From assembly GCA_029210915.1 (NCBI GenBank), contig JARGGJ010000003.1, forward strand, positions 1 through 64,000: DNA of 64,000 bases, written 5' to 3'. The translations under genes were made by a program, and so were the position numbers. Source of the DNA: Patescibacteria group bacterium (lineage in GTDB: Bacteria > Patescibacteriota > Patescibacteriia > 2-12-FULL-60-25). Every line of letters starts with the position of its first letter. Within the stretch, counting starts at the first letter, position 1. Below are positions 48,298 to 57,245 of this stretch, piece by piece. The notes under the pieces are model-generated. The model saw only the letters and a list, made by a program, of their open reading frames with translations, did no database searches and was not told where the DNA came from.

Positions 48298-48301
48298 GTG
48301 G

Positions 48302-48373
48302 TGCACCCTGAGGGAATCGAACCCCCATTGCCGGTTTCGAAGACCGGAGCTTTATCCGTTAAGCTAAGAGTGC
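48302..48373 (-). tRNA. trnR: tRNA-Arg (anticodon TCG)
   Basis: 72 bases fold as a cloverleaf: acceptor GCACTCT/AGGGTGC (one T-G pair), D-stem GCTT/AAGC, anticodon arm CCGGT-CTTCGAA-ACCGG with TCG, T-arm GGGGG-TTCGATT-CCCTC. Discriminator A and an encoded CCA follow (48301-48299). The only canonical tRNA in the window. Confidence 0.95.
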
Positions 48374-52329: not shown

Positions 52330-52745
52330 TTAAGCTAAAAGATCGACAACTAAGCCAAGGCATAATTAATCGCTTCATTCATCTCTGATGAATGTCCCGC
52401 AAAGCCCAATGGGGCGACGTGGGATCCCCGCCAACGCATAGTTACAAACTTTAAAACCGCTTAACCTTCAGAGGAGAGAGGACTTGAACTTACTTGTCGT
52501 AGTTCGAGTCTGAGTATCGCCGGATACTAACTGAAGAACACAAATATAGTGCCCTGCTCTGCAGATCACCTGTTTTGTGCAAACAAATTACAGCCAACAG
52601 CTCTTGATCGCCTATGGCGATATCCGCTATCGGCTATCAGCTATAAAAAGCACCTCGACAATTTACCGTCTTAACCCCTCATGTCAGCCCTCAAAAAAAG
52701 AGTTAGGGCATGAGTGGCTGGGACGGAGTCACCACTTTTAAACCG
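52330..52745 (+). ncRNA. structured leader or RNA at start of GC-rich block
   Basis: Hairpins: CATTCAT-CTCTG-ATGAATG (52376-52394); GTCCC/GGGAT enclosing CCC-AAT-GGG (about 52394-52434); a three-way junction closed by CTTCAG/CTGAAG (52466-52471, 52531-52536) that holds GACTTGAACT/AGTTCGAGTC (52481-52490, 52501-52510) and AGTATC-GCCG-GATACT (52513-52528). Another word hairpin GGCGATATCCGCTATCGGC is near 52615. Stems are long and nearly perfect. I recognise no RNA family; it may be a separate RNA or a 5' leader. Confidence 0.5.
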
Positions 52746-52796
52746 TGGTGATTGAAAAAGTAACAAAGGGTGTTTATACGCCCAAAGGAGATTATC

Positions 52797-53111
52797 ATGT
52801 TGTTCGCAGCCATCCTGTCCGCCCTCGTCCTCGCCGTTCTTGTCATGCTCCCCCTCACCGAGCTCTCGCTCACCCGCGCAGCTCACGCAGAGCTCTACGG
52901 CCTCGAGACGGAACCGGTGACCATCCGGACGAACGGAATGGGGACAGTGTTCCTCATGATGGAGTTCGTCCGGTTGGAGGAGCGGGAGGTTGCTGAGCGC
53001 GCGCTCGCGGAGCGCTACGTGGAAGGGGACGCTCTCCCCCTCCATGCCCCGCTCTTCGAGCTCCCGCTGTTCGCGCCGCTCCCCGCGGCCAACGACCAGC
53101 GCGCCGCCTAG
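52797..53111 (+). CDS. small membrane protein of GC-rich block
   Basis: 104 residues from the ATG at 52797 (AAAGGAG seven bases upstream). An N-terminal helix (LFAAILSALVLAVLVMLPLTEL) is followed by a charged part rich in Glu, Arg and Leu (FVRLEEREVAERALAERYVEGD) and a Pro-rich end. Codons end mainly in C or G, unlike the rest of the window. No family recognised. Confidence 0.65.
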   Translation: MLFAAILSALVLAVLVMLPLTELSLTRAAHAELYGLETEPVTIRTNGMGTVFLMMEFVRLEEREVAERALAERYVEGDALPLHAPLFELPLFAPLPAANDQRAA

Positions 53112-53505
53112 TGCAATGCTAGGCGACCGGGTTTCTACGTTCCCGGTCATCAAAGAACGTTCCTTAGTGGCTGTAATGGCCGATGCCTGGAGGTCAAGGC
53201 AAAAAAACAGACTGCTCTGCAGTCACCTCGCTCACTAAACAATCTCGTTTAGTGAGCTCTCGAACCGAGATGTCGATGATAATCGACGGCTCGGTTCGGA
53301 AATCTCCCAAATCACGCTTTGCGTGATTGTCCCTCTTTGTTAAAGAGGGTCACGGACAACGGAACATTTAAAAAACATTTAAAATGTGTAGGGATAACCC
53401 TTGTGGTTATCCGTGCTGTAAAACCAGTACGGACAATCAAAAGAGTTATCCCTACAAACAACCTTAGAAACAGATAAAAACCTGTTTCTATACAAGGAGA
53501 CATAA
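53112..53505 (+). repeat. hairpin chain and palindromic element, copy 2
   Basis: Perfect hairpins: GACCGGG/CCCGGTC (53125-53148), CTCACTAAAC/GTTTAGTGAG (53231-53256), CGAACCGAG/CTCGGTTCG (53261-53298) with inner TCGAT/ATCGA, AATCACGC/GCGTGATT (about 53312-53330), CCTCTTT/AAAGAGG (53332-53347). Then 53387-53454 is the GTAGGGATAACC...GTTATCCCTAC element. No frame. Confidence 0.85.
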
Positions 53506-53799
53506 ATGCTGAACCTCGCCATCACCCTCACCGTCACCGCCATCGTCGTCGCTTTCTGGAGCCGGTGGGGATTTCGGGTGATGGGGATGCTTTCAGCATT
53601 CCTCACACCGGCCGAACCCGCCCACCAGCGGGTCAACATCAATCGTCGCCAGAGAGACGGCTACAAGGCTCTCCTTAGGGAGGCTGAGTGGCGCGAACTC
53701 GAAGGAGCAACTCTCCTTCGAGAGACACTCGAAAGCGACGACGAGCTTGCGCGAGCCTACCTCGCGCAACTCGAAACCCGCAACCGCAAGGTTGTGTAA
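53506..53799 (+). CDS. small membrane-anchored protein of GC-rich block
   Basis: 97 residues; AAGGAG six bases before the ATG. One N-terminal helix (LNLAITLTVTAIVVAFWSRWGF), then a helical, charged domain (RRQRDGYKALLREAEWRELEGATLLRETLESDDELARAYLAQLETRN). Not recognised. Same GC-rich codon use as its neighbours. Confidence 0.65.
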   Translation: MLNLAITLTVTAIVVAFWSRWGFRVMGMLSAFLTPAEPAHQRVNINRRQRDGYKALLREAEWRELEGATLLRETLESDDELARAYLAQLETRNRKVV

Positions 53800-53802
53800 A
53801 TA

Positions 53803-53918
53803 CTTGGCGCAATGCCAAGAAGTCGCCCCAATAACAATCTGGGCGCCGAACCAACCGATGTTCGTAAAAAAGAGGTCGTAATATCACGGGGTGGCTCCGT
53901 GACGCGTAGATAATACGC
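53803..53918 (+). promoter_or_regulatory. four hairpins between 53506 gene and tRNA-like element
   Basis: CTTGGC-GCAAT-GCCAAG (53803-53819), CGCCC/GGGCG (53824-53845), CACGG/CCGTG (53885-53901), GCGTA/TACGC (53904-53918). Together with the next element they form a 220-base structured run without a frame. Confidence 0.65.
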
Positions 53919-53938
53919 GGTCAATATTCGCACTTTCT

Positions 53939-54025
53939 GGCATCGACCATCGAAAAATGAGCGGGTTGCTCAGCCGGACCTCCGGTGGATGGTGATGTGA
54001 GTAGGTTCAACTCCTACCGATGCCA
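53939..54025 (+). ncRNA. tRNA-like element without normal cloverleaf
   Basis: GGCATCG (53939-53945) pairs with CGATGCC (54018-54024), and a T-arm GTAGG-TTCAACT-CCTAC (54001-54017) abuts the 3' acceptor strand exactly as in tRNA; discriminator A and then CT. The T-loop matches TTCRANY. The 55 bases between do not give D and anticodon arms; instead ACCATC/GATGGT closes two small hairpins GAGC-GGGTT-GCTC and GCCGG/CCGGT. 86 bases long. It could be a degenerate class II tRNA, a tmRNA-like remnant or a functional mimic. Confidence 0.55.
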
Positions 54026-54366
54026 CTACTTAACCCTCCAAAGTTTTTTGCTAAGGAGGGTGATTCAATCGGCTGCATCATTCTAAAGATGGTGCACCTA
54101 AGAATCGCGAACCGTACATAGAGCCCCAATAGCCCTAACCGGCAATCGGCTCCTAAGATGTTAGCGACGAATCTACCCAAAAATCCGGTCCACCGCTTTT
54201 TAGCACAGGATCTGGTTGGTAGAAAAATCAAAAACAACTTATGCAAATTCCAAGCGGCAACATGGTGTTGCTGTGCGGAAACGGTTCTTCCCGGAAACCG
54301 GTGGCGCCCATGGCCACCTCCAACATAGAGATGTCGTTTCAAACGCGTCTCTCTGGAGAATATAAA
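54026..54366 (+). other. non-coding stretch before zinc-ribbon gene 1
   Basis: A frame upstream of the 54367 ATG is open but has no SD and intergenic-like sequence. CGGTTCTTCCCGGAAACCG (54283-54301) and AGAGATGTCGTTTCAAACGCGTCTCTC (54328-54353) are hairpins; the second lies just before the SD. Confidence 0.5.
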
Positions 54367-55332
54367 ATGACAAAGTCCGCCACAGCCGCCACCACCACCG
54401 TTTCCACCACCTCCTCCGCCTCGGACGAGGCGATGGACATCCTCCGCGAGGCCAATGGTCTCTACGAAAAGGCACCCCCCGCCTCGGAGGAGCGACCCAG
54501 TCTCCACCTCCTTACGCCTCCCCCGCCCCCCGCGGTGAGTGAGGTCAAGGAGCTCCCCGAACCTCCGCGCCCGACTGTGGTCGTCCATGTCTGCGATTGC
54601 GGAGCAACTTGCGCGGACGTGGCATGGTGCCACGAGCTCGAGATGTGCAAGACCTGTGCAGCTCTTCTCGTCAGGAAGGCTGAGCAAAAAATGTGGTTCT
54701 GCGCTTGCGGAAATCGTAAGTTGGACAAAGACTACGATCTCTGCGTGCCCTGCCACAAGGCACTGCTCAAGGAGCAGGCGGCAGAAAGAGCAGCGGCAGA
54801 AGCCGCCAAGCTCGTCTGCCCCAAGTGCGGTGGCAAGAAGGATGAGGCATATCACAAGATGTGCCGAAGTTGCTTCACCGCCTCCCGCCCTGTGCCTGCG
54901 CCTCGCCCTCAGCAGGCTCGCAAGGTCAACGGCCGCGAGGTACCCAAGTACAAGGTGGACCCGCGAGTGCAGGCGAAAGCCAACGCCCGAGCCAAGCTCG
55001 GTCAGGAGCTCCTCGCCGCCCACCGCGCCGGTACGCTCGATAAGAGCTTCACCGGTGCGAAGGCGACGATGGACAAGGCGGACAACGCCATGGTGTGCAT
55101 CGCCTACAACGGCGAGAGCTACACCCTGGTCGACCCGGCCAAGGTCAAGGCAATCGCCGAACGCAAGGCCGAGGCTGCCAAGGCTGCCCAGACTGCCCAA
55201 GCCGAGGCCGCCCGCAAAGCCGCCGAGGCACGCAAGGCCGCAGCGGAACTCGCCAAGGCCAACAAGTCCAACGAGCCCAAGAAGGGCAAGAAGGACAAGT
55301 CCGGTGGCAAGGGTAAAAACAAGGGTAAGTAG
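54367..55332 (+). CDS. zinc-ribbon protein with lysine/alanine-rich tail
   Basis: 321 residues from the ATG at 54367 (GGAG upstream). Thr/Ser-rich start, then Pro-rich (LLTPPPPPAVS), then a cysteine-rich part at about residues 78-185: C-D-C-G-x2-C, C-x2-C, C-A-C-G, C-x2-C, and C-P-K-C ... C-R-S-C, enough for three zinc sites. A middle region (VNGREVPKYKVDPRVQAKANARAKLGQELLA) leads to a long Ala/Lys/Glu helix and ends in K/G repeats like histone H1 tails. Nucleic-acid binding is likely but inferred. Overlapping long frames in other phases are shadows of the GC bias. Confidence 0.72.
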   Translation: MTKSATAATTTVSTTSSASDEAMDILREANGLYEKAPPASEERPSLHLLTPPPPPAVSEVKELPEPPRPTVVVHVCDCGATCADVAWCHELEMCKTCAALLVRKAEQKMWFCACGNRKLDKDYDLCVPCHKALLKEQAAERAAAEAAKLVCPKCGGKKDEAYHKMCRSCFTASRPVPAPRPQQARKVNGREVPKYKVDPRVQAKANARAKLGQELLAAHRAGTLDKSFTGAKATMDKADNAMVCIAYNGESYTLVDPAKVKAIAERKAEAAKAAQTAQAEAARKAAEARKAAAELAKANKSNEPKKGKKDKSGGKGKNKGK

Positions 55333-55375
55333 CTCGCACTTTTAAGGGAGATGTGATGACTCCCTAATCACAAAC

Positions 55376-55575
55376 ATTCATCACACCACTCGCCCAATCG
55401 ATCTCGATTGGGCCTTTGACTAAAATCCCCCAATCCAGCGCTTTGCGCAGGATATCCCCCTTTTCCGCCATAGGCGGATCCGCCTATGGCGGAAAAGGGG
55501 GTCTCGATGGAGGGTTTTTGAGAAGTAACATTCCCCCTGCCCCCGTCAGCTGAGCTGAGCTCTGCTTTCAGAAAG
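55376..55575 (+). repeat. hairpin module A of GC-rich block
   Basis: ATTCATCACACCACTCGCCC, then the terminator-like GCCCAATCG-ATCT-CGATTGGGC (55393-55414), then CCCCCTTTTCC...GGAAAAGGGGG with a palindromic loop, then GGTCTCGATGGAGGGTTTTTG, AGAAGTAACATTCCCCC and a closing AAAGGGGGTTGTA. Module B at 56459-56612 has the same parts in the same order, with shorter loops. Confidence 0.88.
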
Positions 55576-55615
55576 GGGGTTGTAAATAAATCCGCCGCAT
55601 CCCGACGGATTGCAC

Positions 55616-55685
55616 GTAGGGGCGCATCCTTGTGATCGCCCGTGCTAAAAACCACAGCACGGATAACCACAAGGGTTATCCCTAC
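55616..55685. repeat. palindromic element GTAGGG...CCCTAC, copy 3
   Basis: GTAGGGGCGCATCCTTGTGATCGCCCGTGCT faces AGCACGGATAACCACAAGGGTTATCCCTAC. The left arm is changed (GCGC/GATCGCC) while the right arm is the same as in copies at 50259 and 53387. Confidence 0.85.
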
Positions 55686-55730
55686 AAAATACACAACCAA
55701 ATCCCGCAAAATGCGGGGAGGAGATTTCAG

Positions 55731-56420
55731 ATGAACAGCACGCAGACCGCCGCCGCCTCCACTTCCAACCCCAGCTCCCGCACGGTCCGCCTCGCAAAGG
55801 AGTTCATTCGTCTCAATACGAAGTTCTCCAAGCAAAATCTCCACGACCATGCGCTCACCAATGCGAAAGTCGCAGAGAACGCGCGGAAAGCAGTGGCTCT
55901 CAACGAGAACCGGAGTTTCCCGAATCTGGAGCCAATCACTCCGGAAGATGTCTCGTGCGCGGTTCGGGAGATGCTCGCATACGAGCGCGAGCTGCGCCGT
56001 GGCAAAATCGAAGAGGAGCGCAAAGCGCGCCTCGTCGAATGCCCGGCTTGCGGCATCAAACGCCGCGACCCGCGGTTCGAGCACTGCGCTGTTTGTGCTA
56101 GGCTCGACGCGGAGAACGAGGCGCTCATCAAGGCCGGCAAGCTGAGGCCCGGTACGCCGCTTTCCCTAGAAGAAATCGACGCCATCGCGGTTCAACAGCA
56201 AACCGCGGCCACAGAGGAGCTGTATGTACTTTGGTACAGAGGTCAGCTCCCCGAAGGCTGTGAAGTTTTGGAAATAAACGAAACCCAAATCCACATCCAA
56301 TCTAGGAACCCGGATGTGCTTTGGAAAATCGACTTTTCCGAACTTCTGCCAGCCAGATCGTCCGAACCCTCCATCGAATCCATCGACCAGGGTTGGGACA
56401 TCGAGGCTGTCGCCGCGTAG
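55731..56420 (+). CDS. zinc-finger protein 2 of GC-rich block
   Basis: 229 residues from the ATG at 55731 (GGAGGAG upstream). The first 110 residues are helical and basic. One zinc site C-P-A-C-G-I-K-R-R-D-P-R-F-E-H-C-A-V-C at about 104-122 resembles the CPKCGGKKDEAYHKMCRSC part of the 54367 protein, so the two may be related. The last 60 residues (TEELYVLWYRGQLPEGCEVLEI ... DVLWKIDFSELLPA) have lower GC codons and a beta-rich look. Flanked by hairpin modules A and B. Confidence 0.68.
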   Translation: MNSTQTAAASTSNPSSRTVRLAKEFIRLNTKFSKQNLHDHALTNAKVAENARKAVALNENRSFPNLEPITPEDVSCAVREMLAYERELRRGKIEEERKARLVECPACGIKRRDPRFEHCAVCARLDAENEALIKAGKLRPGTPLSLEEIDAIAVQQQTAATEELYVLWYRGQLPEGCEVLEINETQIHIQSRNPDVLWKIDFSELLPARSSEPSIESIDQGWDIEAVAA

Positions 56421-56458
56421 CGCACACCCCCAGGTTATGTGATGAAACCTGTTTCTTA

Positions 56459-56612
56459 ATTCATCACACCACTCGCCCAATCGATCTCGATTGGGCCTTT
56501 GACTGAAATCCCCCACTCCGACGTACGTCGGAGATCCCCCTTTGCTAAAGGGGGTCTCGATGGAGGGTTTTTGAGAAGTAACATTCCCCCTGCCCCCTTT
56601 CAAAAAGGGGGT
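56459..56612 (+). repeat. hairpin module B of GC-rich block
   Basis: It has the same order as module A: ATTCATCACACCACTCGCCC, GCCCAATCG/CGATTGGGC, CCCCCTTT-GCT-AAAGGGGG, GGTCTCGATGGAGGGTTTTTG, CCCCCTTT-CAA-AAAGGGGG, TTGTA. The loops are three bases instead of the 10-30 in module A. Confidence 0.88.
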
Positions 56613-56669
56613 TGTAGCATAGCAACCACAGAGACCCTCCAACGGAGCGTCTCAGCTAAGGAGAAAAAA

Positions 56670-57008
56670 ATGAATCATAAGCAGATCCCGGACATCGTAG
56701 GCTTGGGACAGTTCTTGGTACGAAAGGGTACAGACTGGAAGCCGAAGGCTTTCATCGTCCTCGCCCTCCTTTACCTGTTCTTCCCTGTCGACATCCTGCC
56801 CGACGCCCTACCCGTCGCAGGACTTTTCGACGATGCGGGCCTAATGGCCCTCTCGCTTTGGTGGCTTTCATACGCCACCAAAAAATACAACATCTCCCTC
56901 CTCGGCGAAGGCGAGGCTTCGAAGCCCGCCGAACTCGAGGAGAAACCGCCCGCAAGCGTCATCGACGCCAAGGGTGAGGAGGTCAAAGAACCCGATTCGG
57001 GTCAATGA
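56670..57008 (+). CDS. DUF1232 family small membrane protein
   Basis: 112 residues from the ATG at 56670 (AAGGAG upstream). The DUF1232/YkvA core is seen: IVLALLYLFFPVDILPDALPVAGLFDDAGLMALSL (split across the helix pair), with the family D-x-L-P-D and D-D-A motifs. A charged C-terminal tail follows. The family is found in membranes of many bacteria, role unknown. Last gene of the GC-rich block. Confidence 0.85.
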   Translation: MNHKQIPDIVGLGQFLVRKGTDWKPKAFIVLALLYLFFPVDILPDALPVAGLFDDAGLMALSLWWLSYATKKYNISLLGEGEASKPAELEEKPPASVIDAKGEEVKEPDSGQ

Positions 57009-57245
57009 CCTCAAAAGCTACAAGGTTTTCGAGAAGTTCCCTCGGCTCACGCTCGTCCCTCGAAGTTCGAAGAACGTAGTGGGACCAAAAACTTCTCCTT
57101 ATCCACTTGCGCATCAATTTGATGCATAAATGAATATTGCGCAAACTTGATTGTTATCAAGTTTTTTTGTTATTAAAAAGATATCGCACACGCGATACCT
57201 AAATTCTTAATTTTTAATTCTTAATTCTTAATTTTTATTTGGTAA
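57009..57245. repeat. end of GC-rich block and word repeats
   Basis: CCTCGAAGTTCGAAGAACGTAGTGGGACC (57057-57087), TTGCGCATCAATTTGATGCATAAATG hairpin-like words (57105-57131), and TTCTTAATTTTTAATTCTTAATTCTTAATTTTT (57204-57236). No gene and no clear terminator for the block. Confidence 0.7.

Follow-up and report, generated by a model that had tools for sequence, protein, structure and literature searches.

An anticodon-less tRNA-like RNA of Patescibacteria, apparently from a family of tRNA mimics not yet described

The window, the whole 64,000-nucleotide stretch of DNA analysed here, carries a small RNA gene at positions 53939-54025 of the forward strand. Its product looks like an anticodon-less tRNA-like RNA that copies both ends of a tRNA and joins them through a different middle. 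Sequence comparison with homologues shows a conserved RNA made of an acceptor stem, a T-arm, a helix termed here helix B, two hairpins and a variable linker, and the existence of an RNA family with this fold is well supported. Because the shape is kept in distant relatives, the element appears to belong to an undescribed family of tRNA mimics. To our knowledge, cellular tRNA mimics are few and comprise tmRNA, the Y RNAs and some mRNA leaders. The host is an ultra-small, uncultured bacterium, and standard tools miss the family: neither ARAGORN nor Rfam at its gathering cut-off calls any of the 20 copies described below.

The element is 86 nt long, or 87 nt with the discriminator. Its sequence and coordinates agree with the original prediction, which had described 86 bases with an acceptor GGCATCG/CGATGCC abutting a T-arm, an A discriminator, and ACCATC/GATGGT holding two hairpins. 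Its parts are as follows, with pairing values taken from 20 homologous copies.

53938, forward strand: T at position -1, the 5' leader nucleotide expected where RNase P would cut; the same base in 16 of 20 copies.
53939-53945, forward strand: 5' strand of the acceptor stem, GGCATCG, pairing with 54018-54024; 100% of cells paired in the 20 homologues.
53946-53951, forward strand: 5' strand of helix B, ACCATC, directly after the acceptor with no spacer; 95.8% of cells paired.
53952-53957, forward strand: A-rich strand GAAAAA leading from helix B to hairpin 1; A-rich in most homologues (alignment by eye).
53958-53972, forward strand: hairpin 1, TGAGC-GGGTT-GCTCA; 5 of 5 pairs with two-sided changes; its loop is the proposed equivalent of the D-loop.
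53973-53986, forward strand: hairpin 2, GCCGG-ACCT-CCGGT, a short arm at the place of the anticodon arm; 97.4% of cells paired.
53988-53993, forward strand: 3' strand of helix B, GATGGT, as placed by the 20-copy pairing analysis.
53994-54000, forward strand: variable linker GATGTGA between helix B and the T-arm; in the folds of copies L070 and L080 it is extended into a small hairpin, like the variable arms of tRNAs.
54001-54017, forward strand: T-arm GTAGG-TTCAACT-CCTAC; 96% of cells paired, with T-loop C56 and A58 kept.
54018-54025, forward strand: 3' strand of the acceptor, CGATGCC, and discriminator A54025; followed here by CTA, with CCA encoded in 11 of 20 copies.

The 7-bp acceptor and the 5-bp T-arm abut as in tRNA (RF00005), and the T-loop is of the TTCRANY type. 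The D and anticodon arms are replaced by the 6-bp helix B, which encloses the A-rich strand and the two hairpins, with a single G between hairpin 2 and the helix B 3' strand. RNAfold gives the proposed fold with a minimum free energy of -37.1 kcal/mol, compared with -25.8 +/- 3.3 for shuffled sequences (z = -3.45). A scan of the 64-kb window for an acceptor abutting a T-arm with a tRNA-type T-loop, G-U pairs allowed, found this element and the tRNA-Arg, there at 48303-48373, only. The bare geometry proves nothing alone, since the same scan averages 0.85 matches per shuffled window (20 shuffles). ARAGORN and Rfam (gathering cut-off) on the window called the tRNA-Arg, at 48299-48373, and not the element. 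Below threshold, the Rfam family that scores highest on the element is tRNA-Sec, with 19.7 bits where 47 would be required.

We performed a DNA search in 96 related genomes, which returned two full-length relatives with 74-76% identity and one T-arm match. The latter (L005, in genome G029) turned out to be a third full member; another weak match (L006) proved on reading to cover the T-arm only and was dropped. The element is single-copy in its own genome by the same kind of search. A covariance model built from the four sequences (R1) was run on 41 genomes of the same family and 380 of the class and revealed 16 further copies scoring 41-79 bits. The resulting set comprises 20 copies of at least 41 bits from 19 genomes and 10 families of one Patescibacteria class. 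Seven of the 41 genomes of the window's own family carry eight copies (two in G010), and the 12 other carriers belong to nine other families. With R1, the family search scores ordinary tRNA-Leu genes at no more than 36.3 bits, and one tRNA on a viral contig scores 36.5; matches up to 36.3 bits were ordinary tRNA-Leu where checked and were left out of the set. A second model built from all 20 copies (R2) recovered 18 of them in the class sample at 54.8 bits or more, the other two lying in family genomes outside that sample. Presence in the class is patchy, with 17 of 380 genomes scoring clearly above tRNAs.

A second class sample and two order samples added zero new members. Elsewhere in a 379-genome phylum sample, R2 matches did not exceed 42 bits; all 14 loci hold a tRNA-Leu called by ARAGORN and were not counted. 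A pattern demanding both a GGCA acceptor and a strict T-arm matched 15 stretches in a scan of 84,980 species. The stretches supported by the model are from Patescibacteria, including a Ca. Uhrbacteria bin and Parcubacteria SG8_24, and the ones from other organisms coincide with tRNA genes that ARAGORN recognises. Viral pattern matches were mostly ordinary tRNAs or ambiguous, and one phage contig gave a chance match with no match to the model. The family is absent from Rfam 15 at the gathering cut-off, and a search of the literature on tRNA-like and noncoding RNAs of Patescibacteria, CPR and Uhrbacteria found no description, general RNA-motif surveys (including that of 2017 with 224 motifs) and a 2014 Y RNA paper being outside its scope.

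Some elements outside the 20 share parts of this design. Loci L145 and L147 (40-41 bits) look like tRNA-like RNAs built around a different body, and L146 seems from its sequence to be an ordinary tRNA. L145, L147 (the same DNA as L096) and L098:3024-3119 have a GGCA...TGCC acceptor, a T-arm and an ACCA or ACCG end around different bodies, and ARAGORN run on L096 and L098 did not call these elements. The family may therefore extend beyond the 20 copies. Among the 20 copies themselves, L073:1501-1612 has a GC-rich palindrome inserted within the T-loop, and its stems are otherwise all intact. On a viral contig, L034:5943-6023 is a tRNA-like gene with an acceptor, a T-arm and a GCCA end that looks D-armless and receives no ARAGORN call.

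The pairing is maintained through sequence change. Among the first four sequences, 12 of 27 pairs hold through changes on both sides. RNAalifold, run with no structure given on a MAFFT alignment of these four, returned the proposed fold plus a pair between T(-1) and A73, with two-sided changes in 12 of 28 pairs. Among all 20, in an alignment that was fitted to R1 and hence leans towards its structure, 96.6% of 534 pair cells are paired and the number of pairs with two-sided changes is 24 of 27, against 14.1 +/- 1.8 in shuffles and 8-11 when the structure is slid by 1-3 columns. Preservation of the acceptor and T-stem in homologues and compensatory change in the acceptor, on which the original prediction depended, are thus both observed: two-sided changes occur in 6 of the 7 acceptor pairs with every cell paired. 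They also occur in 6 of 6 helix B pairs and in 4 of 4 modelled pairs of hairpin 2. Since homologues keep pairing through two-sided changes, the element is beyond chance. G-U cells outnumber A-C cells 36 to 5 when read on this strand, which points to it as the strand of the RNA. In the orthologous copies L086 and L087, 79 of 87 RNA columns are identical, compared with 40 and 44 of 100 in the two flanks.

Several traits of tRNA maturation accompany this fold. RNase P prefers U(-1), and the T(-1) seen in 16 of 20 copies compares with 19 of the 47 tRNAs of the window's own genome. The discriminator is A in 15 copies and G in 5, the encoded CCA (11/20) has a probability of about 2e-15 against an expectation of 1/64, and C56 and A58 are present in the T-loops of the copies by reading. 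Maturation by tRNA enzymes is thereby supported but not proven. All 47 tRNAs of the host encode CCA; the window copy ends in ACTA and could for this reason be poorly matured, and the genome encodes a CCA-enzyme-type domain. In the same tRNA genes (L156-L202), CGTAA or TGTAA directly follows CCA in 22 of 47, mostly then with a GCCGC...GGCGGC-type hairpin, which reads as a common tRNA trailer or terminator; the tRNA-like element has no such CGTAA/TGTAA trailer.

A tRNA-like elbow may also have been rebuilt. In tRNA, the G18-Psi55 and G19-C56 contacts join the D- and T-loops. In 15 copies the hairpin-1 loop has GG and the T-loop has T55, and in four (L040, L070, L077 and L080) the loop has A then G and position 55 is G, G, C and G, respectively (Fisher 2.6e-4 for 19 copies, L083 being left out as it has no clear hairpin 1, with a register chosen after the data were seen and with L070 and L077 also having GG one place further). 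For the fourteen 5-nt loops only, the split is 11 to 3 (P 0.0027). L040 and L070 are from the same genome, and the covariation amounts to about three independent changes. We regard this co-change as suggestive of an elbow, and no more.

We consider it probable that the element acts as a free-standing RNA which undergoes tRNA-like processing, does not decode, and acts on the tRNA-binding machinery. The gene would encode a structured RNA of about 87-90 nt. Judging from its anatomy, the precursor would be cut at the 5' end by RNase P and at the 3' end by tRNA 3' processing, and would end in CCA, either encoded, as in about half of the copies, or added by the CCA enzyme. Comparison among copies suggests that the hairpin-1 loop docks on the T-loop as a D-loop would. 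The RNA cannot decode because it has no anticodon. It would instead work in trans: as a stable mimic, it would occupy, or else recruit, proteins that recognise the half of tRNA made up of acceptor and elbow. Action in trans is suggested by the lack of an anticodon, by the lack of a neighbouring protein common to the loci and by the presence of a separate transcription unit in some genomes. Of the three ideas offered in the original prediction, the processed tRNA mimic is the best supported (encoded CCA, T(-1), T-loop), the processing itself being what we infer. A further-reaching view, which we hold tentatively, is that these RNAs form a separate class of cellular tRNA mimics, CCA-ended, anticodon-less and with a rebuilt elbow. 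In ultra-small bacteria they would exploit the tRNA life cycle (RNase P, the CCA enzyme, perhaps a synthetase and EF-Tu) and, working in trans, would titrate tRNA-binding proteins or divert them, or would serve as amino-acid carriers in a role other than decoding.

The main rival is that the element is a cis-acting leader or cleavage mark, an RNA without a life of its own. As a tRNA-shaped 5' leader or punctuation, it would set the stability or translation of a downstream small ORF through RNase P/RNase Z cleavage or as a tRNA-sensing switch. We scored gene anatomy with one script, using 1200 random places of the same loci as a control. A ribosome-binding site followed by an ORF of at least 30 codons lies within 110 nt downstream in 8 of 20 loci (at about 75 nt or less), compared with 9.8% for the random places. 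L089 and L093, from two genomes of a single genus, jointly conserve the promoter, the RNA and the ribosome-binding site but not the sequence past the start codon. Both observations are as a leader would predict, but the downstream ORFs are short and unrelated to one another, and an encoded CCA is needless in a leader. Moreover, a terminator comes directly after other copies, and some of these also have a promoter of their own. A promoter-like site lies in the 110 nt upstream in 5 of 20 loci (control 5.1%), and an intrinsic terminator within about 70 nt downstream in 5 of 20 (control 4.4%), that of L066 being weak. L084 and L092 have both, as does L088 by eye, where a bulge and an over-long loop put the terminator beyond the limits of the script. 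Thus, service to the transcript of the surrounding block alone, as first proposed, is not required, although no promoter or terminator was recognised beside the window copy. We consider a leader role unlikely.

No partner protein common to all loci was found, but genomes of different families carry the RNA close to the same genes. By gene names read from sequence, the window, L094 and L095 have two large membrane-protein genes to the right of the RNA; an IleRS-like gene is near L085, L091, L094 and L095, and an RpoB-like gene is to the left of L068 and L071; L066 and L068 have right-hand genes in common. These neighbourhoods fit either old residence with frequent loss or an insertion hot spot in common. 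In the window, positions 52500-57100 form a GC-rich block (0.47-0.66, versus about 0.41 in its surroundings). The small ORFs of this block share one orientation, and the gaps separating them hold many short palindromes. The block encodes a Cys-rich zinc-ribbon-like protein (54364-55332) and a DUF1232 protein (56559-57008); its other proteins have no Pfam match at cut-off and no named PHROG, one matching a PHROG with no annotated function. Just beyond the window, about 10 kb from the element, G000:C33:64311-65149 holds four tRNA genes (Pro, Gly, Phe, Ile). Related ATPase genes follow two RNA loci of different families (L085, +486 to +1667; L069, +725 to +1555), and the ATPase gene of L085 also carries a fused Csx3 domain (Pfam E 1.7e-19). 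Csx3 is a CRISPR accessory linked to cyclic oligoadenylates.

A minimal tmRNA-like or aminoacylated carrier, charged by a synthetase through its acceptor end and delivered by EF-Tu for a non-decoding task, is improbable in our view. Its appeal lies in a topology shared with the tRNA-like domain of tmRNA (acceptor, T-arm, a helix replacing the anticodon stem). In addition, bases 1-4, mostly GGCA, together with A73 vary least within the acceptor (GGCA...TGCC-A), and none of the 47 tRNAs of the host has a GGCA acceptor. Against it, acceptor variants such as CGCGTAC and GACATCG occur among the copies, and pair 3-70, the G3-U70 of which AlaRS reads in tmRNA (RF00023), is C-G in 20 of 20. The element is thus not tmRNA-like in identity. 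The body of 55 nt is nearly all helix B and hairpins, with neither the mRNA-like part nor the pseudoknots of tmRNA; Rfam gives no tmRNA match at the site, and a normal tmRNA is encoded on another contig of the genome. The element is therefore not a tmRNA, as C3-G70, the lack of room for a tag part and the true tmRNA elsewhere indicate, and of the minimal-tmRNA idea raised at first only the topology stands. The tRNA-like domain of tmRNA is described as the 'upper half of tRNA' (PMC3929946). Like it, the element keeps an acceptor stem, a T-arm and CCA and has another helix in place of the anticodon arm. Unlike tmRNA, it is about 87 nt long, and its D-like loop is not a spacer loop but sits in a hairpin inside helix B.

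It is very unlikely that the element works in the manner of a Y RNA, as a tether whose tRNA-like part docks a complex that degrades RNA. YrlA too mimics tRNA at a similar size, with arms resembling the D-arm, the T-arm and the acceptor (PMC8394870), but is circularly permuted, its 5' and 3' ends forming a long Ro-binding stem (PMC8394870, PMC11472068). On that description the element is not a YrlA, because its own ends form the acceptor, many of them with CCA; relaxing the Rfam search to E values as high as 10 brings up no Y RNA either. Least credible is a decayed tRNA gene, an attachment-site relic, as the original prediction also suggested, or a chance foldback: the frequency of the bare geometry in shuffled windows, and the patchy distribution and GC-rich surroundings that suggest mobile DNA, are outweighed by a structure under selection (compensatory change throughout, also in helices foreign to any tRNA; G-U well above A-C), by the kept T-loop, CCA and T(-1), and by the lack of any match to the element in phage and plasmid collections.

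Among the remaining known RNAs, the favoured free-standing mimic resembles tRNA-Sec and the class II tRNAs (RF01852, RF00005) in its 12-bp acceptor/T stack, length and T-loop. Unlike them, it has no cloverleaf and no anticodon arm with a 7-nt anticodon loop, helix B enclosing both hairpins, and it is thus not a tRNA. Viral tRNA-like structures form the 3' ends of RNA genomes, and their acceptors are often pseudoknotted. The element is similar to these (e.g. that of TYMV) in that a tRNA end is built by other means, there recognised by tRNA enzymes, and differs in being a bacterial chromosomal gene with an ordinary acceptor.
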